Assembly: GCA_025618425.1 (NCBI GenBank)
Contig: CM046850.1
Span: forward strand, 6,731,925-6,795,924
Source: Heliocidaris tuberculata
Lineage: Eukaryota; Echinodermata; Echinoidea; Camarodonta; Echinometridae
Reading direction: 5' to 3'
Length of the DNA: 64,000 nt
Shown here piece after piece: positions 10,040 to 51,563 of the stretch. The translations under genes were made by a program, and so were the position numbers. The notes beneath the pieces are model-generated. The model searched no databases. It had not been told where the DNA came from and saw only the letters and a program-made list of their open reading frames with translations. Numbering within the stretch: position 1 is the first letter of the stretch; each line of letters opens with the position of its first letter.

Positions 10040-10117
10040 CACAGAGAGCATTGAGCTTTAGCAGACAGGAATTGAACAATAATGATGTTCTCATCACATC
10101 GCTGCAATCCGATCAAG

Positions 10118-10195
10118 ATGAAAGTCGGACAGGTGGTCGTTGCTTTGCTGCTTCTCTGCACAGAGATCATGCAGACTGCTGCTGATGTCATTGCT
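10118..10195 (+). CDS. RNF13: Ligase exon 1: signal peptide
   Basis: Encodes 26 residues, [14 protein letters not shown] and then [12 protein letters not shown]: a short basic n-region, a hydrophobic core and a small-residue cleavage region before Asp. The donor is GTGAGT at 10196, phase 0. In-frame ATGs also occur at 10082 and 10085, after a stop at 10073; starting there would add 12 residues (MMFSSHRCNPIK). Both 10082 and 10118 have A at -3. I chose 10118 because it gives a standard signal peptide, but human RNF13 has about 34 residues before the equivalent Asp, closer to the longer form. The exon is far too short for ORF finding and was recognised from its splice site and its fit to exon 2. 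Confidence 0.8.
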
Positions 10196-34100: not shown

Positions 34101-37100
34101 AACTGCGTAGATATATTATTATGAAATGTTTTAATAGGCTTTGCAAGTGTAATGTACATGTACATGCATGTTAAAATTAAATATGTCTGTGTTGTTCTTG
34201 TATTAATGTGTTGCATACTAGTACTAATGAATTATTTATCAATTGTAACATGATTAATTCCATGAATGGAAGCAATTACATTTTTTTTTGTAATGCAATG
34301 CAGATTGGGATTTAGTATTTCTATTAAAAAATATGAAGGTGTGAAATTATGGAAAACAGTGGCGCAAATCCATTTTGAAAATTGGGGGGGGGGGGCATTC
34401 GCCTCAAAAATTCTCTGACAAGCAAAAAAAAAAAAAAAAAAAAAAGGTTATTCAAAAAGGTGGGGGGGGGGGTACATTCCCCTCATAAATTCTCTGACAA
34501 GCGAAAAAAAAAAAAGGGTTATTCAAAAAGGTGGGGGGGGGGGGGACATTCACCTATCTTCAAAAAGGTGGGGGGACATGTCCCCCTGCCCCCCTCCCTG
34601 GATTTGCGCCCATGATTGAAAGAGACTATTCTTAGCATTTCTTATTTTCATACCTCCTGGCATTTCCTTCCTAGACAACTACAACAACAACAACAAATCT
34701 GAAAAATTAAGTCTTTTCTTTTACTGATCTCATTCATGAAGTTATAATAATAGCTGTTTCGTATATAGCACCTTACCAGTTACAGTGTACTGTAACCGAC
34801 CAAAGCACTTACAGCATTATTACCCTGGTCACTGGATTCAGTTGCGATTCTGCACATTTCAGTTTTTCAATTCTTTTGAAAATATTATGCCTGATATCAG
34901 ACTGTCATATAAAATTTTCTTGTTTTAGTCTCACACAAACTAAATGATAATCCTTTGTCTGAAGCTTTTGAATACACCTCTTCCAGCAGTTCAGAATTTG
35001 TGCACAATTTAACTGCTTCCCTTGTGTGCTTAGAAAATTTTAGTAATACCTTTAAGCTTTGTCATTAAATTTGTTACATACATGTATCTATAGTTGGCAA
35101 GTGCCCTGTGTTATTTGTCAAATTTCATAGTTCTATACATGTATTTGCAAATTTCATGTCAAGTGTACATGTAACATTGTAACATTTCAGTTGCATCTAA
35201 TATTCAGTGGGCAAATTTTTATGACTTATAACATTTATTTCTCCATTTCTCTTTCTTTTCCTTCTTCTCTCATTGCATGTAAAAAAAAAACTTCTCAAAA
35301 TCCCATTTAAGTATATCCATCACATTCTGTTTTATACTCCATTTTCATTTCTCTTCGGCAATCCCTTTCTTTGTTTTATTTTGCCGTATAATTTTTCTTC
35401 TCAATAACTTTTTCTTCAACATAATTGTTCAAAATCACACAATTATTTTCTAATTTCATTATTCATCTTTCTTCTGCTCTTTTGTTATTTTATCCAATGT
35501 TTTTTTTTTTTTACATTAATGTCTCCACACTTACTCTCATCGGTCCTTTCTTTTCTTATTTGATTTTTTTTTTCTCCATATTTCATCCTTACCCCAGGTA
35601 TACCATTGAGCTAACACCTGACTTCGTATTTCCCTTTCATGTATACCTCATCCCTTTCGCAAGCATTGTAGGAATATGTTTCATCGTAATGTTGTGCTTC
35701 ATGGTAAGTCTAAACAGAAGACCTCAAAATCTAGACCCTAATCATCACTACTTGGGTATCACACATCGTTATACTCCACCGAACCCTAGCGGCGGACTTG
35801 TGACATAGTTTCTTTTCTGTGAATTTCATCTCACATATAGTTTTTATTTGAAAGGTTCATACATCATCCAATCAGCACCTTTTACATGTACATGGTGATT
35901 GTTCTGGTTATTTTTTTTTGAAAAATCTCTGGAAATTTACCTCGGCCCTTAAAAAGGAATAATTCTAACTGACTCTCTTGAGTATGGTTGTTTTTCCCAA
36001 ATCATGGCAATAAGCAGTTGACTCATGCACCATGGAGAGAACAAGATTTTTTTTTTTTTTTAAAGTAAAAAAATCTTGTAACATCTTTGCCAGAGTTCAA
36101 AGTGTGATAACTATAGGTGATACCCAGATTTCAGTGGAATACCTGTTGGCTTTATGCCCTTAATCGGGTCCAGATCCAGTGTCCAGACCGGAGGTCCAGC
36201 TCCTTTATCTCCTTGGGGCCAAGTTACCAAGATCACTAAGCTCTCCCCCCACCCCCACCCCCACCCCTCCCCCTTTTTTTTTTATACCTTTCTTGCTTTT
36301 CTTTGGTGGTTAATTCTTTGTTAGGTCTTCTTTGGCTACTGCTTGCTCAGATCTTCACCTGTTTAACATGTTCTCAACTAACAATTTTTGGTTTTTTTGT
36401 ACTGGTGCATGTTGCAATATTTTTTTGTGTCTGTTTGGTGAATTCTTATCACAAAGCCATGAACATAGCAGCAATAATGATGTACATGTTACATTGAACA
36501 GATTTTGTCCTAATTTTGCACAAGTTAGACTCTCTTTCTAAGAGCAGATTAGTCCGATGAGAGGGAATATAAAAAGTGCATAGATTTGGGAAGAATTCTA
36601 GAATTCAGACAAATGACCTGTTTAGGGGTGAGTCTGAAGTCTTCTTTTGAGACATTTATCAAAAAAGAAATCAGAAATACAGGTTTTGATAGAATATAAG
36701 TCAAACTGTTCATTTTCAATTATTTTTTTTCTGAAAGACTGTGGTAAACATAATGCCATATTTGTCATCTACATACTGAAAAGTTAGAATGGAAAGATTC
36801 TAGTTTGAAGATCTCTCTATTAAATCTCGTATATCACTACTTCTTGATTTGAATGCTAAATTTATCATTACCAGTCCACCTAACAAACTGCAACCAAAGT
36901 TGCAAACCATTCACAAATCCATTGGAAAACTACTGTGCGAAAAAGCAAACAATATTCTTTCCTTTTGGGATCCAGGTTTATTTGGAAGCATTATTTTTCT
37001 CTGACAACATCAAATCAATCTTGACACCTGTCATACATGTACGTTCATGGAGCATTTGAAGCGCTGCATGTACACACGCACATCTCTTGGCTTTGATAAC

Positions 37101-40100
37101 AAATTCATCTCTCATGCATGGTGGTATAATTTAATTCTTGTCCACTATTTTTCATCTGCTCCATGTATTTCAAGTTATTGGTCGGTCAATCAATCAAGCA
37201 AGCATGCTTACTACCAGTATACCCAATGGCTGGTATTCTACTAATTTAGTTAAACTTGACGCTGAGTCTAAAGTCGTGTTTAAGAAAAGGAAAACTTAGA
37301 GCTCACGAGCTTGTTCTAACTTACTTTGTTAAAACTCGACCTTAGAACAAGTGTCAGGTCTAAATTTTAGCAGAATATCAGCCAATGTGTTTGTTTCATT
37401 GTTCGATGTATTATTGTTTTATTAGCATTTCTGTTTGGTTGTGCATGACAGAATCATTGATTTTGCCTTGCTATATTAACCCTTTCAGGACAGGAATTAT
37501 TTAAAGGCTAAATTGATCACATTTTGTTCTTCGAATTGGTAACAATAAAAAAATTCTTTTAATGCTATATGGTTCTAATAAAATGTAATGTCTTTGAAAA
37601 CAACATACATGGTTAGGAACTTTGTTGAAAAGTTGAAAAAAATTGCCAACTTTGATAAAAAACAATGATTTTGAACCTCTCAGCATGTTGCCAATTTGAG
37701 GATTTTAAACCTTATTCTCCTTTTTAAAATTTACGCATCAAACACAATGTGGTCATGCAACAAAATTGGAAATAGTGTTTGCAAATTTTTGTGTTTTTCT
37801 TCTCATGCATCTGGTATATTTTTTAAAGCTCTGAATCAAAAGTTATTGAGCCAAACCACAAAATGTGGTCAATGGTCTTGAAAGGGTTAACATGCATGTA
37901 CTTACCTGACCAGCACTAAACATATTGATATTTGTTGTAATATTGCATGTATTTATATACCTGTACCTATTTTTGTATATTTCTGTGAGTTTTCATAGCA
38001 TGTACTCGTACAATATATGCTTTAGAAGTAAATGTGAATGCTCCTATTCTAGCAGTACACATTCCCTTTGTTAGAGTGGAACCTCCTTCACACTTACACT
38101 TACATGTAGCTCTAGACCAGTGTTTCTGACTATCCTATTCTCTAACAGGTGGGTGATGACTCTCTACCCTTTTACCTATTATCCCTGGACTTATTACATG
38201 CTTCCTTTCCTTTGCATGAGCACTTCTTGCACTGCTTTCCTCTTCCTGTATGCGGTGAGTATTCCAGTGCCTACCCCCATCCCTTTGTGCTTCCATCGCT
38301 CCCCCTCCTAGCACCGCTTTCCATCCCCATCCTTGCTCCACTTCTCCCCCCTCCAAGCTCCATCAGTCCCCTCCTTGCTCCACCATTCCCCTCCTTGCTC
38401 CACCATTCCCCCCTCATCTCCTTGCCTCCATCATCTTTGGCCGGTGGGTCTGTAGTAGTTTTAAGCTCTGGAGGATGTGTTCATACCGTACGCAAATTTG
38501 ATATGATCCTGAGTTGATGGAGAGGACAATTCATCTGTTAAGAGCTAGGAGGGTGTCAACTCTGTGTTAAAGTATAAGAGTTGATGCCCTTCTGGCTCTC
38601 AAGAGACAGATTGTTGAATCTGGAAGATTGTCTTTATGTACAACATGGCTCATTTGATTCATGCCACTTTCTGCACTGAACAGTGCGGTGCTCATTATTG
38701 CACCCCCCCCCCTTCCCCCCCCCCCCCAAAAAAAAAGAGGATTCATTATGTCAAGTCATATGCTTGGCAATATACCCCTCCCTCCCTCATCTTCTTGCAC
38801 CAAGCATATGACATATTTATAGACATCCCAGGAGAGAAATATGATAACAGCACCATGGAACGTGGTTTCATTCATGTAAGAACACATCTCCTCTGAGCTA
38901 AGACTTGTTGAAAGACAAGTGACAGGGCCCTGCTGGTAGCACGGAGGTAGCATGGATATTCTCTTTTTATGATTTCTCCCCCTCCTTTTTTTTTTTTTTT
39001 TTTCTGTTTGGTTATATCTACATTATGTTATGTTTTCAGGTTCCATGTGGTCCTATTACCCAATGAAACCCCGTCTTTGGGATATTACTTCTTACCTTTC
39101 ATTAGCGTCACATCTACTTGTCTCCTCTTCTTTGCCATGTATGCGGTAAGTAGGGTCTTCCAGTGCCCCTCCCCCTCCCCACCCCCTTTATTGCCCCTCT
39201 CCCCATTTACTGCTGGCTCCAAAAGGTGTTTCATACTCGGTGTCTTTGAAGGAGACACTGAGATATTGAAGTTTGAAGCATCCGTTTTCTTGCCTCTTGT
39301 TTGCCATGTTTGTGGTAAGTAGTGTCATCCAGTTTCCCTCCCCCTCCCCTTGCTCCGTTTTATTGCCCCTCTCCCCATTTACTGCTGAGACCAAAAGATT
39401 TTTGCTTTGGGAGCTAATATCTTTGAAATAGACATTGGGACATGGAAGTTTATTAGTGTCACATATTCACATCTCTTCTTTGCCATGGTAAGTAGCCTGC
39501 TCCACCTCACCCAGCCAACTTTCATTATCCCTTCCTCATTCACTGCTGGCCTTAACCCTTACTGTACTGGGGGCGGTTGGGCCTCCGAGGCCCCCCCCCC
39601 CCCCCTGACAAATTTCGCTGCACATTTCGAACTGCTATATTTCACGCTACGTCACTTTTCTGACTTTTTTCTTTCAAGTCTCGTGCGTCTTTTGACACCA
39701 AGTTTTCAAAAATCGGTCATACCGTTCCTGAGTCACATGACCTTTTGTGACCTCATGTCAGCCTGAAAACGGAGATTTTCTGAGTTTTGTGTACAAAACG
39801 AATGGGAAACTGTATTTCCTCATGTTTCTCCTTTATCACCTATAATTTTTTCTTTGAGCTGGAATCATTTATTTTAACTGAATATTGGTTCAAATAACAC
39901 TCTGAAACAGCAGACTTAAAAAAACAATAAAAAAGTTAAAGTTGAAAAACAAAAAAATACATTAGAAATTTGTAAACAAATAGAATACATAGGAATTGAA
40001 ATCACTTTCAAAATTTTTTCTTATGTAACATTGTTTTTAAGGTTAAAACAGAACATCTTGCCTTAAAATTTTATATCCAAGCCTCTTCTTTACTTGATTA

Positions 40101-43100
40101 TCAGTGGACATGTATATTTATGCTTAAATCTGCATAAATTATAATATTAAATTAAAAAAAAAAGATTTACATTAAAATAACGATGGATTTGTGTTCTTTA
40201 CATGATTTTCAAGGCCTGTGCAAAATTTTGCATAGATCGGTCATGTCATGGCCCCCCTCAGTCAGAGAGATGCTTGAAATAGCCAAGTACAGTAAGGGTT
40301 AAAGGGAAAGTCCGCCCTGGTATTTAGTCGATCCGAATAAAAGAAAAACAAGAGAAACAGATCAGTGAAAGTTTTAAAGGGATTGATTAACTTTGCTGTT
40401 CGTAAAGTTACACATGACTTTACAAATGACTTAAATATGACAAGCCAAATGGGATGCTCAATCATTTTTAACTGCATCAACTAAAGTTGAACTGTGCAAA
40501 TGTAGATTAACATTCTTATTATAACAAATATTTTTAATGCAAATGTATATTTTTTGCCATAATTTAATTAAGGTTATTGGAAATACAGTCACACTTTGTT
40601 AAAACATCAGGAAAAACTTTGGGCATCCTATTTGGCACTTCATATTCAAGTCGTTCGTAAAGTCATGCGTAACTTTACGAACAGCTTTATGAAACACCCC
40701 CCAGGATTGAAAAAAAAAAATCACTGTTCAGCTAATGCTGTAATCATAATTGCAAACCTTAGGTCAGACAGGAATCGCCTGAGTTTTATAAGCTGATCAG
40801 TCGTTTATAGATCAGGATATTTACGATTGAACAATGATGTCGTGATACTAGTACCACCGAACTCTAAAGAACTCTTATGGTTCTACCGTACAATGAACGA
40901 ATCCCTATTTCTTCACGGGCTGGAAACCCGCTCTGAAATCGCTGGTGCTTGGTTTTTGTGACTGCAGCGCGCTGCAGCGCAGCAAAGAAGCTGAGGTCTT
41001 GCCCTATAGCGATCAATTGCTTTTTTCTCTTTTTTAGGATAGTAAACGGGTTCCACTTTCTCTCATACTTTCACATATCCTTAATATTATGTAGTTAGAG
41101 GACTGCACACAATTCACTGGCATTTGAACTGATTTTTGAATTTTTCACAAAGTTAATCAATCCCTTGAACAAAATCGGACAAGAAATAAGAAAGTTATGA
41201 ATTTTTGAAGTTGTAATCATTCAAACACAAATTGGCAACTCGGTGATGTATCTTGCGAGCTCCTCTCCCATCACTTTCACTGGTCTGTTTCTTTAATGTT
41301 TCTCCCTCTTTTAAAACCAACTTGATATCAGGGTGGACTTCCCCTTCAATGTCTTTGAAGGAGACATTGAGACAGTGTAGTTTTAAGCATCCATTTTCTT
41401 GTCCCTTCTTTGCCATGTATGCGGTAAGTAGGGTTGTCCAGTGCCCCTCCCTCTCCCCCCCCCCCCCCCCCCCTTAATTACCCCTCTCCCCATTTACTGC
41501 TGGTGCCAAAAGGTAGTTCATACTTTATGTCTTTGAAGGAGACATTAAAACATTGTAGTTTAAAGCATCCATTTGCTTGTGAGTCTCTTCTCTGCCATGT
41601 ATGCGGTAAGTAGGGTATTCCAGTGCTGCTGCACTGCCCCCTTTTATTGCTCTTTTATTGCCCATCCCTCATTCACTGCTGACATCAATAGATTTTTTTT
41701 TTCCCAAAGATAATGCCTTTGAAGGATTTATTTAGTCATAAAAGTTCCATATAGCATCTTATCTTGACATCTCTTCTTTGCCAAGTGCCAGATCACTTTT
41801 AATGGGAATAAAGGGAAGTTAATGAACATTACATCTACATGTCTCCCCTTCTTTGCAGTAAGTAGAGTTATACACCTGTATGATAAATTAGGATTTATTA
41901 GCCATGTGACTAGTTTGGTTCACATACCTGTACATGTAGTTATTGTTAATCAACATTACATTTTCAAGGAGTTATTACATTGTACTTGTCTTTTGTTGGT
42001 CTATTCTTGAGTGGAAAGGTAAGCAATTATTCTATAAAGCAGATCAACAAATGGTACTCTATCCAATATACAGTGCGTCCCAGAAAAAACGAAACCCTAA
42101 AACAAAGGGTTAGTGTGACCACACTATGCGCTCTATGACAATAATTATCTTTTATCCATAAACTAGAAGTATTATGCTTTTAAATGATACCTTGATGTCA
42201 TTCATCCGTACATGCTTTACCGAGCAGCATCATTTTGAAAATGACATGTAAAAACTCAGTTGTGCCAGATTTGGTTAAAACCATGAAAACGTTAGTATCA
42301 CATGCAAACATGACGTAAGGGAAATACCAGCCTTAAGAGATATGATACTTGAAAGTCCCTTGTGTGATGACATGCATTCAATCAGAAATTCTTAAAACAC
42401 GGGTCAATACCAATTTCCAGTGGTTGCAGGGGCGTACGACCTCAAAATTCCCAAAATCAATGAATTTCCCTCAAAAGATGAAAAAGTGCCCTTCTGTGAT
42501 GGAAAAGGTGCCCCTTCTGAGGTGGGAAATTGCCATAATCTTGATATTTTTTTCTGCATTATGTGCCCTTTCTACCTTGTATTTCCATTTGATGACAATG
42601 GAAAGTGCCACTTAATCTATTGATATGAAAAATATCACCTTTCTGTCCGATTTGTTCTTAAAATAAATTTCAGTTCTGAAAAAGGCATAAAATTCCTTTT
42701 CATTTCGATTGCAGGTACCATTTCAATACAAAACATGCCCTTTCTTTACCCCCCCCCCCCAACATCGACATAAAATTGACCATCCTTTATTTTATGATGA
42801 GGGTTGTTATTCTTACCCTCATTATTAAAAAAAAAAACAGATGGAAACAGTATTCTCATAGGGTTTTAAAAGTCATATTTCATTCGGGTCATGTTCGCAT
42901 GTGATCCTAACGTTTTCACGGTTTTACCCAAATCTGGCACAACTGAGTTTTTACATGTCATTTTCAAAATGCTGCTGCTCGGTAAAGCATTTACGGATGG
43001 ATGCCATCAAGGTATCATTTAAAAGCATAATATTTCTAGTGTATGGAAAATGTATAATTATTGTCATAGATCATATAGTGTGGTCACAATAACCCTTTGT

Positions 43101-46100
43101 TTTAGAGTTTCGTTTTTTCTGGAACGCACTGTATAATGCCCTGGAAATGATCTCAGGTTAGGCATTATATGTGAAATTTTTGCATTTTAACTTCAGGTGC
43201 AGACTTTCTGGAGTAGCATCTACATGTATCAATCAATATCTCCATATGTGATTGAAATAATACTGTGTTGGCTTTTCCTTTGAATTTAGATGCATGTTTA
43301 AGCAGGGGAGTGTCTCAGCAAATTCATTGTGAAGCTTTCGCTCCACTTTGCCCAACTTGAACTATCATAAGTTAACAATTTGCATAACTTGCATGTTGAA
43401 ATCACTAAGCTGTCAATGACACACCCATTTTCACTCTCATTCGCTGTTGAAATTATGGTACATAGCTTACACAAGGCCAGACTTAAGTTCTTGTCTCAAT
43501 GCATGTACATGTATGCATGATCAGCCACCAAAATGTTAACCAAATGTTTTTTAGCACTCTCAAGCATTGAACTATGTAATAAGCTTATTTGCTTGCTTGA
43601 TTTACAACTGCTTATCTCCATTTCCTTGGACTTTCTATCAGGTAAGTAGGCCATCCATGGCACTCCCGCAATACGTGCACCTTCTCCCGTTCTGTGCCTA
43701 TCATATTCCACTAGTCTCGCACACTATCAGTCCCATGCTAGCATGATTATTTTTTTCTCCTTTTATATATTGAAGGGTTAAGGAGTTAGGCTTAAAGTGA
43801 TTGATTAACTTTGTGAAAAATTGTAAAATCAGCTCAAATGCCAGTGAATTGTGTGCAGTCCTCTAACTACATATATAATTAAGGATATGTGAAAGTATGA
43901 GAGAAAATGGAACCCGTTTACTATCCTAAAAAAGAAAAAATCGCGATCAATCGCTAGCGCAAGTCGCTCGGCTTCTTCGCTGCGCTGCAGTCACAAAAAC
44001 CAAGCACCAGCGCTTGGCGATTTCAGAGCGGGTTTCCAGCCCGTACGGTATTCTGTGATAGAGCGAGGTATGCCAACCGTAAGAGTTCTTTAGGGTTCGG
44101 TGGTACTCTATCCCGACATCAGTGTTCAATCGTAAATATCTTGATATATAAACGACCGATCAGCTTATAAAACTCAGGTGATTCCTGTCTGAGCTAAAGG
44201 TTTGCAATTATGATTACAGCATTAGCTGGAACAGTGATTTTTTTTTTTTCAATCCTGGGCAAAGTTAATCAATGCCTTTAAGCTAAATCTAAACCCAAAA
44301 TGAAAGGGCAGGCCACATGTCAATATTTTGAGAATGATTATATTTTGATTATGATCTTAGAAGAGGTTTGATGATGATAAAATCCTTCCATGTACACTGT
44401 AGAAAATGTACTTGTAATGGATCGAAGCAAATCTGTGTTGAAAGCTCTTTAGCCTAAATCTGTCAGCACCATACAATTTATTCATAGACCAACTGTAGCG
44501 TTATCATTCTGTTATCAAATTGTTTGCATATAGCTGATATGCGAATAGCCCTCCACACTAACACTAACCCTGACCCTGACCATGACCCTAACCTAACACT
44601 ATGCATTAGCATAGGACCACTTGTGCATAGGACCACTTGTGCATAGGACCAAGGGGGTGTCACCAATTTGCCGGTGCAACTGGAAAGTACATGTAGTGAA
44701 GATCTTACACCCATCGAGAAATATTTTCAACAGGTGTGCATGTCTCCCCCACCACAGGTTTACGATCCGTCTGTATCCTTACTATTTCCCCTGGATATAC
44801 TACTTCTCGTCTTTTATCATCGTTACCGGCGTCTGTCTTTCTTTATGCTTTGTGTTCTCGGTGAGTCTGATACTTTGTCCGGTTGTACGACACACACGTT
44901 CCGGGGGACAATTGCCCCGCAGTCATTTTTCCCACACTAACCAAATTCTTTAATTTCAACCCTTGGGCCCAGGGGGCCCGTCTTATAAAGAGTTGGGATT
45001 GATTGCAAATAATTAGCAGTTGATATCAATCGCACCTCTGTACTAATTTAGAGATAGGAGCTGCGATTGATATCAAGTTACAATTGATTTGAATCAATCG
45101 CAACTCTTCATAAGACAGGACCCAGGGTCCTGTCTTACTACTGGACCAATTACTACACCTAATTCTGAACATAATCTAAGGGCAACCGCACACCGTACGA
45201 TCGGTCTGCGATCCAATTTGTGAATTAAATCGCTATGGCATTAAATATTGGCATTTTAGCAAATGAAATCTACCCTATTCAGGTTCTGAAAAGTAATATG
45301 AATACTAAGCATAGGGTTTTGGTGAGCTGTCAGCTTTCTACAGGGAATAAGGGCAAAATTAGTTTCAAATTGTAGGCAGTCGTACGATTTTTGTGACGTC
45401 ACTACGACTCGGAGCCGATTTGGCCCTTCCATGGACTAGAAAACTCGGCAAAGGCCGTATTATCGATTTTAGTATCTGTATGACTATTCACACCCTCAAT
45501 AAAAAATATTTTTTGTTTTTGAATGATTTGTCAAATGATACTACATTTTCTTCTGAAATCGGATCACAGACCGATCGTAAGGTGTGCAGTGGCCTTAAAA
45601 CCTTATTGCAATCCCGATCCTTACCCTATATCTCTGCCATGATAAAGTGCAGAGCATTATGTCGCTGGAGCACATGTCGGATGACAACTTCACTTGCCTT
45701 ACATGCATGTAGGTTCGCAGGTGTGTATACATGTAGTACATGTAAGTATGGCTTTGTTAAAAAGTTTAATTGAATATCTTGGAATGCAAAACTCCATAAA
45801 AGGTAAAGGTTAAGTAGACTCTACTTTCTTACGCACTTATTTCTTATTCTTGGACTAGAGTAGAGATATTTATTCATCTCCGTGGTGGTTAATGTAAGAA
45901 TGACATTGTAAACAGTCACAGGTTCAAGGGGAAAATAAGTTCATATTGATTTCTTGGAATGCAAAATCCTGTAAGAGTAAAAGGTAAGTAGATCCTACTT
46001 TCCTATGTCTGTATTTATTGTTCACTGACCAAAGTAGATTCATATATTTATTTTTCTCTTCCCTCTCTTTCTGCTCCTTTCTAATGCCCTTTTCGCCATC

Positions 46101-49100
46101 CTTTGCCAATACCCCAAAGTTAAGTCATCACGCCCCCCCCCCCCTCCTCTGGAATGGGGGATATGGAGAAGAGGAAAAAAAGAGTAATTAAAGGATCTGG
46201 ACCCTATTCTGTTTCATTTTAGGGGAGATGTGATTTTTCATTCGAATATCAGTCATTCAGACAATATATTTTGTTGAATTATCTGTAAAGTTGAATATAA
46301 TAAGCTTTATTTATGTTTATACATGCAGTTGTAGAGTGTATAGCAGTTTAGAGCATGTAATGTAGACTGTCATGAAAATCTCATAATATTATCGTCTATA
46401 CTAATTTTCTCGTAGGTGTGTCTTTTTGGTTTAAAGAAAAAACAATTGCATGAAAATCAACCATAAGTGTAAGGAAATAGAGTGGCTATTTTTGCTGTAA
46501 TTTTAGAATGTTTTTCATTAATGAAGTAGGATTTCTTTTGTTAAAGGGATTCACTTCATGTCATTAAAAGATATTACTTTCATTACCTTATTTTGAAACA
46601 AATTTTATAAAAAATATTTTATTATCTATTGCCTTCTCCAGATTGCAAAGTATGTAAGAGATCAGAGAAGACGAAGAAAAGCCAGACTATCTCGCGACCA
46701 TCTCAAAAAGCTGCCTATCAAGAAATTCAAGAAAGGTATATTTTTTTTATTTTCATTGGTAATATACTGGATAAATCAATTATGTCAAATTGGAAAATCC
46801 CCAGCTTTTTTTTTTTCTTAAGAGAACTAGATGATAAACTAGCACATTGTTTTACTCAGCCTTATCTTTATTTCACTTATGTTTGATGCCTCTGTTGCAT
46901 GAGACAATGTCTTTTATAAGTGTCACATTTTAAATATACATTATGCTGTGTGGCATGATAGGTAATTGGACATGACTGGATTTTTTTTTTTTTTTTTTTG
47001 TAAAAGATCTTTGAAACATTTGGTATAGTGGAGGAAAATTGATAAATGATTTGTACTACTACAGTGACTGTCACAGTAGTCCTTTAGTTTGACTAAATTT
47101 TTCATTATCACAAGTGGGAGTGCTGATATTTTATTTTCATTTTTAATGGACATTTGAGGAGATGAAATTTCATTTTTAGAAATATTGAATGTGCCTTGAT
47201 ATTATTTTTTAAATAACTGCCACAAGTACATCATATAATGAACTGTGACCTGAATTCTTACTTGTTTACCATTCAGATGTAAATTACATAGGAGTCAAAA
47301 TTCATTTGCTTGTAAATTTCATCATGCTTCAAAAGTGAATTTCACTATTTGATTGACAGGTGGAATGTAGAAAGATGGATTGCTTATTGATTTATTGTTA
47401 ATTTCAGATCATCTAAATTTGTTGTTTGTAGGTTACATTTACATCCTGTGCTTCAGCTGTTTAATGTAGATTTCAAGATTCCACTAAAATTACCTTCAGC
47501 AAGGTTCAGGACAAAGTGACCTTGTTCTTATATCAGTCTCGTATTTCTGTATCAAATTTTAAAGAAAAAATACACAAACACGCAAAACAAACCAATGTGT
47601 TCTGTCTCATAATCTAGACAGTATTCCCCATACTTCTTGTAAACTTATTTAAGTCTGAAAATATTTTCTCAACAATTGGAAAACTTTTTAGTCAAGCCTA
47701 CATGAGGTTTCTTTGTTAACATTTGATTTTTTAATGACATCACTAGTATACACATTTCCATTATATTCAGTACAAGAATTCTAATTTAGAGCAAAGCAAT
47801 TACACATCTACATTAACTATTTTATTTCAGTGTGTATGGTGCTCTTTTTGCCATCATTTTTTGTCATTTTTACATGTATTATATTAAAGAGATCTAGCAC
47901 TATTTACCCCTGTGATATTATAACTTAGAACTGGTAATTGATAATGATTTATTGATTTACATTTTCAGGTGATGAGTACGATGTTTGTGCTATCTGCCTT
48001 GATGACTATGAGGAGGGACAAAAGCTTCGCATACTGCCTTGCAACCATGGTGAGCATAAAATGATAATTTGGTACTAAAGGGAAAGTCCACAAAAGCATA
48101 AAAATTAAAGAGAAGCAGATCAGCAAAGGTTTGAGTAAAATCAGATAAAGAATAAGCTTGTTATGAAATTTTAAAGTGAATTGTAGGTTTAGTTTTTCAG
48201 GGTTACACCATGTAATTCTTTCAAGGAATAAGAGCCCTAAAAAGGGCTAGTGAGCTCCGCTAAGAGCTCTGTGGTTCTCGACATTTCAGTTTCTCCACCA
48301 TGAAAGTGTCGCTGATACTTCACTAAATACCGGCTCTAAGGGGAGCAATCATTCAGCGGAAAATCTGGCCCTTGTTCTTTATTCAGAGAAAACAATGGCA
48401 CCGTCCGGTGCTTTCTCTGTTTAGAGGAATTATAGCGCCACCAGTGACCAGAATGGGAATGCAGCCGTGAATAGAATTCGCAGGCATTTCCGATTGGCAC
48501 CAATCAGGCTGTGAATCGGATCCCTCCGTAGGCAATAAATAGCTTCCACTGGGCAGTGTTCTAGTCATTCTCCTGATAACGATCAGAGCATACTGATCGA
48601 AACGTTGAAAACCACAGAGCTCTTAGCGGAGCTCACCAGCCCTTTTCAGGGCTCTTATTCCTTGAAAGAATTACATGGTGTTACCCTGCAAAACTAAACC
48701 TACAATTCCTCTTCCTTTATCTTAAAAAAGAACTTGCAAAATTCAAGTCCTTCATGTTCACTCTGCTATATTTTGTCAAACTACACCTCACCTTAGCTTG
48801 TTAACTGATCTTTATGAGAAGGAAAAAAAATATTAAGATCATTTTCATTTTAGCTTACCTTGTTTGGTTCTTGCTCAGTAGTTTTGTCCAGAGATTTGAG
48901 ATTGTCAAAGAGGGTATCAACTTCACTATTCATCTACACAAAGATCAACCATGTAAGAAGATAAATTTTCAAAATGAACTTCACAATACTGAATATTGTA
49001 TGGACAGTTTGCACTATGATATGTATCATGAAGATATTAAACCATGCATCTAATGCTAGTAACTGTTAACTCTTAACTGAATTGTGTCATGAACGAGTAT

Positions 49101-51563
49101 CCAAGCTAATGTACCTTTCTTTCATACAGAAACATTATATAATGAGTTAAATGTCATGTAAAATGGAAGATGAATTCCAAGCCCTATCACAGTTTTAAAG
49201 ACAAAAGGCTCTGGCTTTTTCAATCCAAACTAGCTTATATCAATTAATACTTTCTGGCTGCAAGTGTAGATATTTACATGAGTGAACAAATGTAGTGTCA
49301 ACTCTTTATCATTGTTCTTCAAGTGAATTAAGTGTATCCACTTCACTTCAAAACCTAGATTCAATGAACAGAGAAACATTTCTATGCCTAGAGTCATCAG
49401 AGCATACTGATCGAAACATCGAGAATGACAGAGCTCTTAGCAGTGCTCACCAGCCCATTTCAGGGCTCTTATTCCTTGAGAGAATTACATGGTGTAATCC
49501 TGAAAAACTAAACCTACGATTCAGTTTCTCCACCATGAAAGTGTTGCTGATACTTCACTTAATTTTAAAGTGGTCACTCAACCTCTTTTGGCAACTCTGT
49601 GATGTATGTGTACCTTTTGAGCACCTCTCCCATTACATTAAGTACTAAAAATTTCACAAGTTTCAAATTTTTGTGAAGAAAATATTTTGGTATATCCATG
49701 CCCTAGATACTACATATATGTATTAGACACATTATTTTCTACATGCCCTCTATAAAATGATCTATTTCTTTGTCAGTAATCATGGAAATGGAAATTTTTT
49801 AAATTTTCACTACAAAGCAAGTTGGAGAGCTGCTTTAAAGATCTATCACAAAGTTGCCAATTTGCATTTGATCAGTTACAACTTTGAAAATGAGCAATTT
49901 TCTTATTTTTGAACTGATTTTCCTCAAACTTTCACTAATCTGTTTCTCTCAATGTTCAGGTTTTAATCAAACCAACTTATTGTCAGGATGGACTTCCCCT
50001 TTAAGTTATTCCGTTTCTGTCCTCAACTCTCCCACTTTTGTTCCCACAATTTTCCGACAGTGATCCTACTTCATTCTCATGTTCTTTCTCATATGAAGAC
50101 TTTTCTCTTTATCTTTTTGTGTCTGTCAGTTCCTTCTTTCTTCTTTTCCGTGTCTTCCTGTCCCTCATATTTCTTCACATTTTCATGCTTTTCTTTGTAC
50201 TCTCGTTTTGCATACCTTTTTCATTGTGTTCAGGATCTCCAATATTCAGAATCAATTTCTTCACTTGATATCTTTATCCACACATTTTGCTTAAATTTCG
50301 TCAAGTCGCAGATTTTTGGAAAAGAATTCACCAATTAGTATTAAATTTGTTTCAAAAAGATATTGTACTGGAAGAAAAAATCATAATAATTGGTTTTAAC
50401 ATTAATGAAGTAAAATTCATGCTTATTAATTTATTATTTATTTATGCTCAGTATGCAATTTATAAGGTGTATATACTTAATCAGTTTAGAAGTAAATCCT
50501 TTAACAGTCAGTCAATTTGGATGGCATTCAGAAATGATTTTATGTTTTATGTTAATTGGCAGTACAAAAACAAAAAAGAAGTACTAAGGAATATTGAGAT
50601 GCATCTGATCTAGTTTCTGATTCTTTTCTCCTCTTTTCTCTATCATATTATATCACTGTTGTTGTTTTTGTTGTTGTTCTTCATCATTTGACTAATTTTG
50701 TAAATATTGTCTTCAGATCCTATGTAATGTTGTTAAATGATATATTGTAATGAAGTACCTCGAAAGAGGAAAAGAAAAAAAAAAAATCTTTATCCACACT
50801 ATTAACAATACCTTGTAGCAGGGGATTGTTATCCTTTGTTACGTTTTCATAAACAGTTCACATTTTTCATTAGTGAAGAAGGTTCAACATGGAGACCTGT
50901 GTTGTGTTCTAGAAGTCTCTTAAGAAGTATCATTTTATTTCCAGTTAATATTCATGGAAGGAATTGACTTGTGTAGTACGAAGTTAAGGTTTGAATGCTG
51001 GAAGAGCATACATTTACTGGCACTAGAAATAGAAGCATGATATTTTTGTTTGTCCCAGTGTCGTTTAAAGAGTTTACCCTCTTGATTGAGAACTTGGGAT
51101 ATTATTCAATGCCTTTTTGTGTCATTCTCCAGCTTTCCACTGTAAGTGCATCGACCCCTGGCTAACTAACAACCGTCGCACCTGCCCCATCTGCAAGCGC
51201 AAAGTCGTCCCTCCGGGTATTGCCGACTCAGACGAGGAATCTGATTCCGAGGCTGGCGACTCCCCAAACGAGAACACCCCCCTTCTGTCTGGCATGCAGT
51301 CGGATAACCTGAGCGATCGGGGTGCAGTTGGTGGACTTGCCGAGACAGCGACGCCGCCCCCGTCCCCGACGACGTCCGTTGAAGGTGATGACTACGCACC
51401 CATCGATACCCTCATCAGGGTGGAGTCAGATTCGGAATCCTCGGGGAGTTTCCCACTGGAGGAAGCCAGAGGAAGCATCCAGGAGCTACCGAACATTCTC
51501 AGTGTGACCGTGCACTCCGAGAATGAGATGGAACCAGGCAGGAGTAGCACCCCTAAAGTCTGA
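10118..51563 (+). CDS. RNF13: RNF13-type transmembrane RING-H2 E3 ubiquitin ligase, nine coding positions
   Basis: Joined exons 10118-10195, 16406-16480, 17249-17377, 18993-19080, 24111-24192, one TM exon (35598-35703 or an alternative), 46642-46735, 47969-48049 and 51133-51563 give 387 residues. Order: signal peptide 1-22, PA domain about 30-150, TM about 166-186, basic linker 187-217 ([10 protein letters not shown]), RING-H2 with C224 C227 C242 H244 H247 C250 C262 C265, then an acidic Ser-rich tail. All junctions keep phase. The RNF13/RNF167 family (Goliath group) are endosome/lysosome-membrane E3 ligases with PA domain in the lumen and RING in the cytosol. PA blocks [21 protein letters not shown] and IPSVF, the linker [14 protein letters not shown] and the tail ENTPLL match RNF13 best. 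Human RNF13 has 381 residues. N-glycosylation sequons NDTS, NASD and NYST lie on the lumenal side. Family assignment is secure; RNF13 versus RNF167 orthology is inferred. Confidence 0.93.
10240..10846. mobile_element. Long fold-back element just after exon 1
   Basis: About 600 bp flanked by TTAA/TTTAA. Left arm AAAGGCTAAGTCCACACTAA ... TCAAGTTGATTTGAA ... AGCATAACAGTGAAAATT ... AATGAGTGAACCGATGATGT; right arm is the reverse complement, ending TTAGTGTGGACTTGGCCTTT. The arms run over 200 bases each with few mismatches. It lies in intron 1, 45 bp from the donor. Member of the 'AAAGGGxAAGTCCACCCTGGTATTAAGTTGATT' family also seen at 32921-33134, 40299-41346 and 48076-50004. Confidence 0.75.
10950..11040 (+). 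pseudogene. Duplicated exon-1 tail with a broken donor
   Basis: GGGATGTCATTGCTATGAGTTCATAGTCC here matches GATGTCATTGCTGTGAGTTCATTGTCC at the end of exon 1 and start of intron 1 (10184-10212). The similarity continues through ATTTGTAAATAT...GTATTTAAAG into a second fold-back left arm. In the copy the donor GT has become AT, so it cannot splice. This indicates an old local duplication of the exon 1 / intron 1 boundary. Confidence 0.6.
11965..12845 (+). repeat. Minisatellite interrupted by an inserted hairpin
   Basis: Units of about 45-60 bp built on ATGAGAAACTTGATTATAT plus TACAGTGATATGTAAAAGTATAxA are repeated about ten times from 11965 to 12477, with period drift. Two further units appear at 12751-12845 (GATTATATTGCAGTGATGTG, CATGAGCAAATTGATTAC), after a hairpin insertion. 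Confidence 0.7.
12478..12750. mobile_element. Hairpin MITE inside the minisatellite
   Basis: Inner inverted repeat: ACTATTAATACATGGTTGGG and GTGCGTTAGTGCGATC pair with GATCGCACTAAAGCACG and AACCATGTATTAATAGT. A second pair, TTTTATAAAACGGGT near 12582 and ACCCGTTTTATAATA at 12735-12749, bounds the right half. Minisatellite sequence resumes directly after it. Confidence 0.55.
15703..15905 (+). mobile_element. Diverged tRNA-derived SINE
   Basis: tRNA-like head with a box-A-like TGGTCTGGTTGATCAG near 15711 and a box B GGTTCAAATCC at 15755-15765. The body (TCAGCAAGACATTAATTTATATTTGCC ... TTGGGTACTGGTAGGAAGAAATTCTTTGAATG in pieces) is shared with the SINE at 16006-16310. It lacks a foldable mature tRNA, so it is not a tRNA gene. 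Confidence 0.65.
16006..16310 (+). mobile_element. tRNA-derived SINE
   Basis: Box A TGGTCTAGTGG (16016-16026) and box B GGTTCAAATCC (16060-16070) form an internal RNA polymerase III promoter. The tRNA-unrelated body follows, ending GTGCGCTATACAAGAAGCC and an ATT-rich tail. The tail motif gcgctata(t/c)aa is seen again before the (TAG)n array at 61257. Confidence 0.75.
16406..16480 (+). CDS. RNF13: Ligase exon 2: start of PA domain
   Basis: Acceptor TTGAACAG, donor GTATGA, phase 0 at both ends, 25 codons: [18 protein letters not shown] then FPPKGQM. Corresponds to the RNF13 segment ending in 'ARFGYRLPAEGLK'. Contains the sequon NDT. Too short to appear as a long ORF. Confidence 0.85.
16800..17203. 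mobile_element. TTAA MITE family 1, copy b
   Basis: TTAACCCTTTCAGGACAGGA at the left and AAATGGGTTAA at the right; same internal sequence as 6277-6690 in the other orientation. It sits only 45 bp upstream of exon 3. Any ORF inside is accidental. Confidence 0.75.
17249..17377 (+). CDS. RNF13: Ligase exon 3: PA domain core
   Basis: Acceptor TCATACAG, donor GTAAGA, phase 0-0, 43 codons: [18 protein letters not shown] then [18 protein letters not shown] then NCDFDKK. Matches the PA pattern of the family (G-x-L-x(3)-P-x(2)-A/G-C ... ALVxRxxCxFDxKV). The two Cys (C63 and C89 of the protein) are conserved in the family. NAS is an N-glycosylation sequon. Confidence 0.95.
17791..18505. mobile_element. 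TTAA MITE family 1, copy c, carrying a nested MITE
   Basis: TTAACCCTTTCAGGACAGGA at the left, CTCGAAATGGTTAA at the right. The element is split near 18115 by a 310-bp insert bounded by GGGGATGTTTCATAAAGCT and AGCTTTATGAAACACCCCCC (18116-18426); the host sequence resumes at CTGGTATATTTGTTAGGGCT. The insert is family 2; its other copy is at 40396-40702. The long minus-strand ORF over this region (17631-18185) is not a gene. Confidence 0.75.
18993..19080 (+). CDS. RNF13: Ligase exon 4: PA domain
   Basis: Acceptor GCGTGCAG, donor GTAAGT at 19081; 29 codons plus one base: [18 protein letters not shown] then [11 protein letters not shown]. Equivalent to RNF13 'VLNAQRAGYKAAIVHN...LISM'. Ends in phase 1. 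Confidence 0.93.
20386..20661. mobile_element. TTAA-flanked MITE (GGGAGC ends)
   Basis: TTAAAGGGAGCCACCCTCGA on the left and TTTTTGCTCCCTTTAA on the right; a further inverted word pair (ACCCTCGA near 20398, TCGAGGGTGG near 20494) lies inside. TTAA at both ends. No ORF. Confidence 0.6.
21213..21634. mobile_element. TTAA MITE family 1, copy d
   Basis: Left end TTAACGCTTTCAGGACAGGA; right end CTCGAAATGGTAA (eroded). Interior matches copies b and f. Confidence 0.7.
21736..22199. mobile_element. hAT-type MITE with intact 8-bp target duplication
   Basis: CAGTGTTATAGCTACGG at the left and CCTAGCTATAACACTG at the right. ATCTTGGT is repeated exactly on both sides (21728-21735 and 22200-22207), the 8-bp duplication expected for hAT transposition. 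464 bp; the interior has no transposase. Confidence 0.8.
22665..22974. mobile_element. Inverted-repeat MITE
   Basis: GATTGTAATTGGGTATTTCC ... CTTGGTGTCCCACTTACATA on the left is mirrored by ATGTTGTAAGTGGGACACCA ... TATTTCTGGAAATACTGTAC and ACAATC on the right, with arms of about 85 bp. No ORF of substance. Confidence 0.65.
24111..24192 (+). CDS. RNF13: Ligase exon 5: end of PA domain
   Basis: Acceptor CTACCATAG, donor GTATGT; enters in phase 1 (completing TAT, Tyr124) and leaves with two bases of a Gly codon. Reads [17 protein letters not shown] then [14 protein letters not shown] is the conserved PA-domain end in RNF13/RNF167. NYS is a sequon. The GG overhang must be completed by G, and every TM exon downstream starts with G. 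Confidence 0.93.
24417..24567. mobile_element. Short hairpin MITE
   Basis: GGGCCCCGTTGTATAAAACT plus TACCATTAACGATAACTTTG on the left pairs with CAAAGTTACCATTAATGGTA plus AGTTTTATGCAGCGGGGCCC on the right. 151 bp. Confidence 0.75.
25868..26453. mobile_element. Near-perfect 586-bp palindrome (fold-back)
   Basis: TTAAAGGAAACCAAAACCCA at the left mirrors TGGGTTTTGGTTTCCTTCAA at the right, and pairing continues inward over more than 200 bases per arm (GGATCCTCAAATTGGCAAAA / TTTTGCCAATTTGAGGATCC; AACTCTCCATTTGTTTTGTA / TACAAAACAAATGGAGAGTT). Few mismatches, so it looks recent. Intronic. Confidence 0.8.
26889..27288. mobile_element. TTAA MITE family 1, copy e
   Basis: TTAACCTTTTCGAGCCATTT on the left, TTTCCTGAAAGGGTTAA on the right; same orientation as copy a. 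Confidence 0.7.
29862..30206. mobile_element. Poly-C MITE related to 1013-1353
   Basis: Ends AGCAGATTTAGGGCAGGGG and GAGATCTGCCCCTGG; the interior has C tracts near 29904 and 30118 and the word TTGTTGCTTGTCAGAGA shared with 1160 and 34405-34500 (reverse). Confidence 0.55.
30830..31185. mobile_element. GGTCATTTGTACC repeat with a nested tRNA-derived SINE
   Basis: The outer parts (GGTACAAATGACCCTGAAAT at about 30836; GGTACAAATGACCTTTATCT at about 31133) belong to the repeat seen at 19230-19440 and 22970-23175. Between them, about 30913-31110 is a SINE with box A TGGTCTAGCAG (30925-30935) and box B AGGTTCGTATC (30991-31001), a different family from the SINEs at 15.7-16.3 kb. Confidence 0.6.
31413..31726. 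mobile_element. MITE with GGCCCATATTCTGAACTC ends
   Basis: GGCCCATATTCTGAACTCTG plus GTTTAACTTAAACCA at the left; TGGTTTAAGTTAAACCGGAG plus TTCAGAATACGGGCC at the right. An inner pair TGGTTTAACTATGGGCAGCC / GGCTACCCATAGTTAAACCA also folds. Confidence 0.7.
34357..34613. mobile_element. Poly-G MITE with internal tandem unit
   Basis: CAGTGGCGCAAATCCA at the left, TGGATTTGCGCCCATG at the right. In between, a unit of about 75 bp (TTCTCTGACAAGC, A tract, GGTTATTCAAAAAGGTGGGG, G tract) is repeated two to three times. Confidence 0.65.
35598..35703 (+). CDS. RNF13: Ligase exon 6a: TM segment, version a
   Basis: Acceptor ACCCCAG after a long pyrimidine tract, donor GTAAGT. One base (G, completing Gly151) plus 35 codons: [14 protein letters not shown] then [13 protein letters not shown] then FIVMLCFM. 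This is the version closest to human RNF13 (YLIPF...IVGIC), so it is the likely ancestral or default anchor. Enters phase 2, leaves phase 0. Conserved among all versions: an aromatic pair, P-F (S-F in 6d) and a mid-membrane Cys. Confidence 0.93.
36100..37475. other. Intron between TM exons 6a and 6b: nothing recognised
   Basis: Pyrimidine-rich stretch near 36241-36290 and an AT-rich remainder. The hydrophobic ORFs at 36303-36541 do not form an exon with the right phase. No repeat family was identified before 37476. Confidence 0.4.
37476..37890. mobile_element. TTAA MITE family 1, copy f
   Basis: TTAACCCTTTCAGGACAGGA on the left, TCTTGAAAGGGTTAA on the right. Well preserved; lies 260 bp upstream of exon 6b. 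Confidence 0.75.
38149..38254 (+). CDS. RNF13: Ligase exon 6b: alternative TM segment
   Basis: Acceptor CTCTAACAG, donor GTGAGT. One G plus 35 codons: [17 protein letters not shown] then [18 protein letters not shown]. Same length and phases as 6a, and the same YY-x-LPF core and Cys at codon 27; otherwise the sequence is very different, with aromatic residues just outside the membrane and a polar S-T-S-C-T inside it. The open frame continues into the intron by chance, to 38517. Expression is not shown by sequence alone. Confidence 0.85.
39040..39145 (+). CDS. RNF13: Ligase exon 6c: alternative TM segment with a sequon
   Basis: Acceptor GTTTTCAG after a T tract, donor GTAAGT. One G plus 35 codons: [17 protein letters not shown] then [18 protein letters not shown]. 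Shares YY-x-LPF and Cys at codon 27 with 6a and 6b. Unlike the other versions it carries an N-glycosylation sequon (NET) a few residues before the membrane, perhaps too close to be used. It is the parent-like copy of the decayed units downstream. Confidence 0.85.
39241..39495 (+). pseudogene. Decayed copies of exon 6c (two units)
   Basis: Two tandem units end in TTTGCCATGTTTGTG|GTAAGTAG (donor at 39315) and CTTCTTTGCCATG|GTAAGTAG (donor at 39488), matching the end of 6c, TTTGCCATGTATGCG|GTAAGTAG (donor 39146). Spacing is 169 and 173 bases. The 3' part of the exon (ATTAGTGTCACAT...TCTCTTCTTTGCC) is recognisable, but the 5' half and acceptor are gone, replaced by CTTTGAA(G/A)(G/T)AGACA-type sequence shared between units. 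Confidence 0.7.
39552..40302. mobile_element. TTAA MITE with CCCTTACTGTACT ends
   Basis: TTAACCCTTACTGTACT at the left, AGTACAGTAAGGGTTAA at the right, about 750 bp, with a C tract at 39591-39606. Another TTAA-type terminal-repeat element without transposase. It abuts the next fold-back directly (shared TTAA). Confidence 0.7.
40299..41346. mobile_element. Fold-back element containing two nested MITEs
   Basis: Outer ends TTAAAGGGAAAGTCCGCCCT and AGGGTGGACTTCCCCTTCAA belong to the 'AAGTCCACCCTGGTATTA' family. Its body is broken at about 40374 by a family-3 MITE (AAAGGGATTGATTAACTTTG ... CAAAGTTAATCAATCCCTT, to 41166), which is itself broken at about 40396-40702 by a family-2 MITE (ends GAAACACCCCCC; left end missing about 17 bases). 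Three layers can be read because uninterrupted copies of each exist elsewhere: 10240-10846, 43792-44281 and 18116-18426. Confidence 0.75.
41350..41870 (+). pseudogene. Decayed copies of exon 6c (four further units)
   Basis: Units end at TTTGCCATGTATGCG|GTAAGTAG (donor 41424), CTGCCATGTATGCG|GTAAGTAG (donor 41606), a donor-less CTTCTTTGCCAAG near 41786, and CATTACATCTACATGTCTCC...CTTTGCA|GTAAGTAG (donor 41858). Each is followed by a pyrimidine-rich stretch and CCATTTACTGCTG-like words, as after 6c. None has a visible acceptor or full frame. Together with 39241-39495 they form one array, now split by the MITEs at 39552-41346. Confidence 0.7.
42071..43131. mobile_element. TA-flanked fold-back element (Tc1/mariner-like ends)
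   Basis: CAGTGCGTCCCAGAAAAAAC at the left and its complement GTTTTTTCTGGAACGCACTG region at the right, each next to TA. Inverted arms of about 240 bases (TGACATGTAAAAACTCAGTT / AACTGAGTTTTTACATGTCA). The unpaired middle (about 42320-42890) has no transposase; it holds a short GGGGCGTACGACC segment and a C tract. Confidence 0.75.
43792..44281. mobile_element. TTAA MITE family 3, uninterrupted copy
   Basis: TTAAAGTGATTGATTAACTT at the left, AAAGTTAATCAATGCCTTTAA at the right. The interior (CTGCGCTGCAGTCACAAAAA, GATTTCAGAGCGGGTTTCCA) is the reverse complement of 40703-41166. Lies between TM exons 6c and 6d, in the opposite orientation to that copy. Confidence 0.75.
44758..44860 (+). CDS. RNF13: Ligase exon 6d: alternative TM segment
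   Basis: Acceptor CCACCACAG, donor GTGAGT. One G plus 34 codons: [16 protein letters not shown] then [10 protein letters not shown] then LSLCFVFS. One codon shorter than the others (103 bases) but the phases are the same. Clearly related to 6b in the juxtamembrane part (LYP-x-x-x-PW-x-YY) and to 6a in the membrane part (I-V-x-G-V/I-C). Has S-F in place of P-F. Confidence 0.85.
44973..45124. mobile_element. Short hairpin MITE
   Basis: GGGCCCGTCTTATAAAGAGT and ATTGATTGCAA at the left; TTGATTTGAATCAATCGCAA and CTCTTCATAAGACAGGACCC at the right; core GATATCAATCGC / GCGATTGATATC. Confidence 0.7.
45178..45597. mobile_element. MITE with CACACCGTACGATCGGTCTG ends
   Basis: TAAGGGCAACCGCACACCGT and ACGATCGGTCTGCGATCC at the left; GGATCACAGACCGATCGTAA and GGTGTGCAGTGGCCTTA at the right, about 415 bp. 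ORFs inside are accidental. Confidence 0.7.
45770..46060. repeat. Two-unit tandem duplication
   Basis: TTCTTGGAATGCAAAACTCC-like sequence followed by AAAGGTAA.GTAGA.TCTACTTTC occurs at 45777-45830 and again at 45953-46005, about 172 bases apart. No frame is conserved. Not part of the TM exon array as far as I can see. Confidence 0.5.
46642..46735 (+). CDS. RNF13: Ligase exon 7: basic juxtamembrane linker
   Basis: Acceptor CTTCTCCAG, donor GTATAT; phase 0 in, phase 1 out; 31 codons: [17 protein letters not shown] then [14 protein letters not shown]. Matches RNF13 'ITKFVQDRHRARRNRLRKDQLKKLPVHKFKK'-type linker. It is the common acceptor for all four TM exons. Confidence 0.93.
46740..47968. other. 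Intron 7: nothing recognised
   Basis: AT-rich sequence with T and A tracts (near 46808 and 46981-47000). I see no gene, repeat family or inverted repeat here. Confidence 0.5.
47969..48049 (+). CDS. RNF13: Ligase exon 8: first half of RING-H2
   Basis: Acceptor TTTTCAG, donor GTGAGC; phase 1 in and out. Reads [18 protein letters not shown] then LRILPCNH, providing C224, C227, C242 and H244 of the zinc-binding set. Nearly identical to the family consensus, so under strong constraint. Confidence 0.96.
48076..50004. mobile_element. Fold-back element with a large nested insertion, intron 8
   Basis: Ends AAAGGGAAAGTCCACAAAAG and AGGATGGACTTCCCCTTTAA are those of the fold-back family at 40299-41346. 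Inside, 48179-48708 is a second inverted repeat: GAATTGTAGGTTTAGTTTTT, ACACCATGTAATTCTTTCAA and GAGCTCCGCTAAGAGCTCTG, mirrored at the other end. A rearranged third piece of that repeat lies at 49390-49560. Remaining sequence between 48710 and 49390 is unassigned. Confidence 0.6.
51133..51563 (+). CDS. RNF13: Ligase exon 9: second half of RING-H2 and cytosolic tail
   Basis: Acceptor TTCTCCAG; 142 codons and TGA. Starts (A)[21 protein letters not shown], supplying H247, C250, C262 and C265; W254 is the conserved Trp of E2-binding RING-H2 domains. The tail is acidic and Ser/Pro-rich ([17 protein letters not shown], then NTPLL). E291-x(3)-L295-L296 is an acidic dileucine motif; human RNF13 has the same EHTPLL motif, linked to AP-complex sorting and mutated in disease. 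The exon is markedly more GC-rich than its surroundings. Confidence 0.96.

Follow-up and report, generated by a model that had tools for sequence, protein, structure and literature searches.

Four similar exons occupy one membrane-helix slot of an RNF13-type ubiquitin ligase gene in the sea urchin Heliocidaris tuberculata

Introduction

Drosophila Dscam carries two alternative versions of exon 17 (17.1 and 17.2) that encode the transmembrane and juxtamembrane part of the protein within one gene and are described as mutually exclusive in splicing. The choice between them is reported to send the protein to dendrites or to axons (PMC2566808), and therefore a transmembrane exon can serve as an address. 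Dscam exon 17 is the closest precedent for the locus described here, the RNF13 gene found in a 64,000-nt stretch of the genome of the sea urchin Heliocidaris tuberculata (GenBank assembly GCA_025618425.1, contig CM046850.1, positions 6,731,925 to 6,795,924 of the forward strand; hereafter the window), in which four similar exons occupy the slot that encodes most of the membrane helix of a ubiquitin ligase.

RNF13 is described as an endosome-lysosome protein whose endosomal localisation is lost in PA mutants and whose proteolysis frees the PA and RING parts (PMC8834447). Exposure to phorbol ester is reported to move RNF13 to the inner nuclear membrane (PMC4021871). Its lysosomal targeting is ascribed to a dileucine signal, EHTPLL in the human protein, acting with AP-3, and variants of this sorting signal are given as a cause of developmental epileptic encephalopathy (PMC8620429). 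How RNF13 is trafficked, cleaved and directed to the nucleus has thus already been studied; less clear is the role that the helix of PA-transmembrane-RING proteins plays beyond anchoring.

Results

Exploring the window, we found four exons of 106, 106, 106 and 103 nt (6a to 6d, Table 1) that lie within one 22.4-kb intron and share phases, open frames and good splice sites. A pyrimidine-rich tract with CAG precedes each exon, and its donor reads GTAAGT or GTGAGT. Each provides one entry base completing the codon begun in exon 5 (end 24192) and ends with a complete codon, joining exon 7 at 46642. An earlier reading of the same DNA (the original prediction) had given the coordinates, lengths, acceptors and donors, phases and open frames of these exons exactly, and its assignment of the gene to an RNF13-type ligase was borne out by the best protein matches, RNF13-like proteins of Strongylocentrotus purpuratus (83%) and Lytechinus variegatus (82%), indicating that the gene is an RNF13 orthologue and confirming that four similar exons stand in one of its slots. 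The F-x6-C spacing of the family membrane helix is kept in all four exons; its F and C positions are invariant columns in 20 aligned RNF13 proteins, and in composition-keeping shuffles the motif occurred at a frequency of 0.004-0.010 for each of 6b, 6c and 6d. Of the other motifs read from the alignment in the original prediction, the aromatic pair is absent from 6a, which has V-Y, and (L/S)(P/S)F has to be widened to (I/L/S)(P/S)F since 6a carries I-P-F. Comparison of the peptides within the window matched 6b to 6d (E 4.5e-6) and to 6c (E 2e-4); the 6c-6d (E 0.007) and 6a-6c (E 0.03) pairs were not clear of simple-sequence and chance matches, which reached E 0.004. A held-out profile recovered 6d at E 3.3e-5.

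Inclusion of one exon 6 kept the frame to the same stop in all four cases, as did joining all four copies. With none, two or three copies, each of the 11 combinations ran into a premature stop over 50 nt upstream of the last junction. Taking one exon 6 appears to be the simple route to a working protein, and the transcripts that stop early would be expected to undergo nonsense-mediated decay. This frame rule goes beyond the original prediction. One feature of mutually exclusive clusters is present, in that the exons stand in tandem, resemble one another, agree in length and phase and fill one slot.

To define what exon 6 exchanges, we turned to models of the L. variegatus isoforms X1 and X2, which are of the 6a and 6c type, respectively. 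Both models have the same elements, a strand at 164-167 that closes the PA fold and a helix at 175-211, the single transmembrane helix between PA and RING, and the X1 model matches the PA domains of VSR1 and GRAIL. Projected onto these models, exon 6 (163-197) spans the final PA strand, the linker and the larger part of the helix. Hence the original view of a single transmembrane slot held in that four exons fill one slot, and required correction in that the first residues of the exon provide, in the models, the closing strand of the luminal PA fold.

Hydrophobicity was expressed as the best 19-residue sum on an approximate insertion-energy scale, by which 6a (-1.67) and 6d (-1.16) differ from 6b (+1.73) and 6c (+1.50), whose helices have a Ser/Thr core. 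All eight 6a-type rows scored as well inserted (-1.24 to -4.68). Weakly hydrophobic scores were obtained, besides 6b and 6c, for L. variegatus X2 (+1.05), Diadema antillarum X1 (+1.26), Asterias rubens X2 (+0.80) and the protein P0014 (+1.97); Antedon (-1.55), P0015 (-2.14) and Apostichopus (-1.68) gave negative sums. These values suggest two physical classes of helix, hydrophobic and weakly hydrophobic.

Searching proteins with a chimera of the 6b, 6c and 6d peptides returned two among 11 candidates, L. variegatus X2 and D. antillarum X1, both of the 6c type; clustering of the database at 90% may have concealed isoforms. The 27 differences between L. variegatus X1 and X2, which come from contigs of equal length, are confined to 164-197, and the 29 between A. 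rubens X1 and X2 to 163-197, the exon 6 slot. Each of these annotated isoforms contains one version of slot 6. Exon 6c is identical to L. variegatus X2 at 29/35 residues, compared with 242/295 for exons 3-5 and 7-9 together, and to Diadema at 27/35, compared with 211/283, which puts 6c on a par with the constitutive exons in both comparisons. Conservation in relatives, the check proposed with the original prediction, was thus found for 6c. Its proposal of alternative use agrees with the annotation of two types, 6a and 6c, in other echinoderms; the evidence for 6b and 6d is anatomical. The sea-star isoforms are more distant (Asterias X2 against 6c, 14/35; Asterias X1 against 6a, 19/35). Among the matches listed, the 6a-type core F..(ILV)(ILV)G.C was present in 151 of 170 proteins; the 19 others comprise seven echinoderm or echinoderm-like proteins (P0001, P0002, P0014, P0015, P0018, P0019 and P0020) and 12 more, including RNF167, tunicate and mollusc proteins. 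P0014 and P0015 are 65-68% identical to Apostichopus, and the representatives of Patiria, Acanthaster and Amphiura examined were of the 6a type only. A third helix type, ...FLSVI.LCLLLPAIFG, was seen in the sea cucumber Apostichopus japonicus (X1, P0020) and in P0015, a similar protein.

The age of the 6a/6c split was addressed by trees of the slot, which comprise 35 columns with long branches and groups picked after the sequences had been seen. In the 23-row tree the alternatives fell on one side of a branch with support 90/99, and in the 18-row tree Asterias X2 joined echinoid 6c with support 96/98 and 96/97. Forcing Asterias X2 together with the sea-star 6a types was rejected by the approximately unbiased (AU) test (p 0.0004, 23-row set), and further AU tests of the same constraint gave p 0.0066, 0.032 (mixture model) and 0.022 (25 MAFFT-aligned rows). 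Given that a separate sea-star origin of the Asterias alternative was rejected, these tests are suggestive of a 6a/6c-like pair that arose before urchins and sea stars split. The alternative-type helices of the crinoid Antedon and of P0014 hint at a still older date.

To estimate how often such exons arise by chance, we scanned both strands of the window for AG..GT exons of 100-112 nt that are open in the exon-6 phase. The scan gave seven candidates on the + strand and two on the - strand, and the four best donors were those of 6a to 6d. These four were the only + strand candidates inside the 22.4-kb intron, where one - strand candidate (33648-33543) was also located. Applied to 20 control stretches of this genome (400,000 strand-bases) and limited to lengths of 103 and 106, the scan gave three candidates, one with an equally good donor, none hydrophobic and none with F-x6-C. 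Outside the locus the nearest genomic match to the four exon types had E 3. A profile scan of the 22.4-kb intron gave no convincing fifth exon. The segment 31737-31814 is closer to 6a (E 0.005) than 6c is; it was rejected as a fifth exon, being an open frame without a consensus donor and absent from the profile scan.

The gene has nine coding exon positions, from 10082 to 51563, and encodes 399 residues, or 398 with 6d. Exons 3-5 and 7-9 were located by tblastn with human RNF13, and exons 1 and 2 by tblastn with the RNF13 proteins of S. purpuratus and L. variegatus, with borders and frame checked. The product consists of a signal peptide, the PA region (exons 2-5), slot 6, a basic stretch (exon 7), RING-H2 (exons 8-9) and a tail with ENTPLL, an ExxxLL dileucine signal at residue 303 that lies in exon 9 and is constitutive. 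Pfam detected the PA domain (PF02225, 52.6 bits; cut-off 23.9) and RING-H2 (PF13639, 55.9 bits), and RNF13 was the best PDB match of exon 9. A Pfam PA profile search of the genome (897 Mb, 69 contigs) missed this split gene entirely, and copy number was therefore taken from a search with L. variegatus RNF13. Seven of its 20 genome matches were exons of the locus and 13 covered the RING part; among these 13, one extended back over the membrane part and none reached the PA body, and RNF13 therefore appears to be single-copy.

In the region 39293..41880 (+), downstream of 6c, the 3' end of this exon recurs in five truncated copies, each with an intact GTAAGTAG donor. The eight + strand occurrences of GTAAGTAG in the window all fall within the exon-6 intron, and the - strand has none, with about 1.3 expected per strand; the truncated copies may possibly act as decoy donors. 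Nested inverted repeats lie between 6c and 6d (40729-41169 / 43792-44228 and 42064-42326 / 42876-43138). The outer foldback was rejected as a splicing structure, since its first arm is a mobile repeat: of the 40 genome matches scored, 39 were further near-full copies with 88-91% identity. Rfam gave no match within the exon-6 intron. The 140 nt past the 6b donor (38255-38394) are 50% C, the 99.7th percentile of the intron. C-rich tracts are read by poly(C)-binding splicing factors, for which this segment is a possible site.

Table 1. Coding exons of the H. tuberculata RNF13 gene and donor copies in the exon-6 intron (positions in the window)
Feature	Position	Strand	Description	Evidence
Exon 1	10082..10195	+	start codon and signal peptide	tblastn, borders, frame
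Exon 2	16406..16480	+	PA region begins	tblastn, borders, frame
Exon 3	17249..17377	+	PA domain	tblastn; Pfam PA
Exon 4	18993..19080	+	PA domain	tblastn; Pfam PA
Exon 5	24111..24192	+	PA domain; can splice to any exon 6	tblastn, splice and frame check
Exon 6a	35598..35703	+	last PA strand, linker, transmembrane helix; ancestral type	identity 33/35 with S. purpuratus X1 and 32/35 with L. variegatus X1
Exon 6b	38149..38254	+	alternative, Ser/Thr-cored helix	splice sites, frame, F-x6-C, similarity to 6d
Exon 6c	39040..39145	+	alternative, Ser/Thr-cored helix	identity to L. variegatus X2 and Diadema (see text)
Exon 6d	44758..44860	+	alternative, one codon shorter, hydrophobic helix	splice sites, frame, held-out profile
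Exon 7	46642..46735	+	basic stretch following membrane	tblastn, splice and frame check
Exon 8	47969..48049	+	RING-H2 first half	tblastn; Pfam RING
Exon 9	51133..51563	+	RING-H2 second half, tail with dileucine signal ENTPLL, stop	tblastn; Pfam; PDB match
GTAAGTAG donors of truncated 6c copies	39315, 39488, 41424, 41606, 41858; also 43642	+		

Discussion

The explanation we favour, and consider probable, is that the four exons are alternatives, of which a transcript likely takes one, that they exchange the closing PA strand, the linker and the greater part of the helix of an RNF13-type ligase, and that the choice would set the membrane in which the ligase resides, its cleavage or the partner of its helix. 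We infer mutual exclusion, the use of 6b and 6d in this urchin and the functional effect. By this proposal the PA body, RING and dileucine signal would remain constant while the parts encoded by exon 6 change with exon choice, and such a change next to a kept dileucine signal may shift residence, cleavage or helix partner. Ligases with the hydrophobic 6a or 6d helix would stay on the endosome-lysosome route known for RNF13, and those with the weaker, Ser/Thr-cored 6b or 6c helix might be held earlier in the secretory route or be cleaved more easily within the membrane, so that the same RING would work elsewhere or as a released fragment.

Several results weigh against this explanation. Joining all four exon 6 copies, the one such combination, also stays in frame. 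A scan of 16 intron pairs for RNA duplexes of the docking/selector kind gave a best z of -2.8 and nothing common to the exons; such pairing is one known mechanism and is not needed in every mutually exclusive cluster. The use of 6a to 6d in this urchin is predicted from genomic DNA, and the X1/X2 isoforms of the relatives are database gene models, the basis for which is not displayed. The two-class pattern of hydrophobicity is broken by 6d and Antedon, and the approximate scale, the short slot alignment described above and the search and profile results for 6b and 6d given below count on the same side.

It is rather unlikely, in our estimate, that only 6a and 6c are used and that 6b and 6d are dying duplicates like the neighbouring truncated 6c copies. 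No relative of 6b or 6d was found among the proteins searched with the chimera, 6b was weak in the held-out profile (E 0.12, ranked below two chance matches), and the five truncated copies show that duplicates decay here. However, 6b and 6d are each still a full exon with its two splice sites, phase, open frame and F-x6-C, unlike any of the five truncated copies, and the two still match each other clearly. We consider it improbable that the alternative helices, though used, are equivalent to one another, their splicing being near-neutral noise around an anchor whose one task is to span the membrane. The X1 and X2 models do share the same elements, and transmembrane anchors in general tolerate change, but the conservation of 6c at the level of constitutive exons and the apparent age of its type, older than the urchin-sea star split, count against this reading. 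That 6b to 6d are chance open stretches or parts of another gene is scarcely credible: a 22-kb intron holds many AG/GT pairs and the window scans gave other, weaker candidates, but the control-scan rate, the similarity among the exons, the annotated isoforms with the same swap and the remoteness of the next genomic match speak against it, and for 6c the isoforms in relatives have already refuted this reading.

Beyond the swap of four alternative exons, we tentatively propose a wider reading, in which the RNF13 anchor of echinoderms would have been splice-switchable since before urchins and sea stars split, the hydrophobic endosomal helix and the polar-core helix being two selected states, with the helix acting as an address and cleavage code that was widened to four versions here. 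An old 6a/6c split suggests that the difference was worth keeping. The locus would offer a natural swap experiment, with PA body, RING and sorting signal the same and helix and last PA strand different, and isoforms expressed in urchin embryos, which are experimentally accessible, would distinguish what the helix contributes from the contribution of the other parts.

Searches of the open-access journal literature showed, among the entries listed, no paper on the X1/X2 swap or on this exon cluster. The NCBI isoforms X1 and X2 of L. variegatus and A. rubens show the same swap in the same slot, with two types there and four here. Vertebrate RNF13 and RNF167 likewise have the order PA, transmembrane helix and RING with a dileucine signal, and RNF13 has the F-x6-C helix; unlike the urchin alternatives, the vertebrate RNF13 slots among the matches listed are all 6a-like. 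Some reptile and bird RNF13 isoforms differ instead by inserts located where the urchin 6/7 junction falls, as seen in P0135 (Falco biarmicus) and P0137 (Rhineura floridana), where the insert lies just inside the membrane. Swapping of transmembrane exons is already known from Dscam and is proposed here for an RNF13 ligase gene with four such exons. Dscam is an adhesion receptor with two such exons, whereas the urchin gene encodes a ubiquitin ligase with four, in which the last PA strand is swapped too and an effect on location is predicted.

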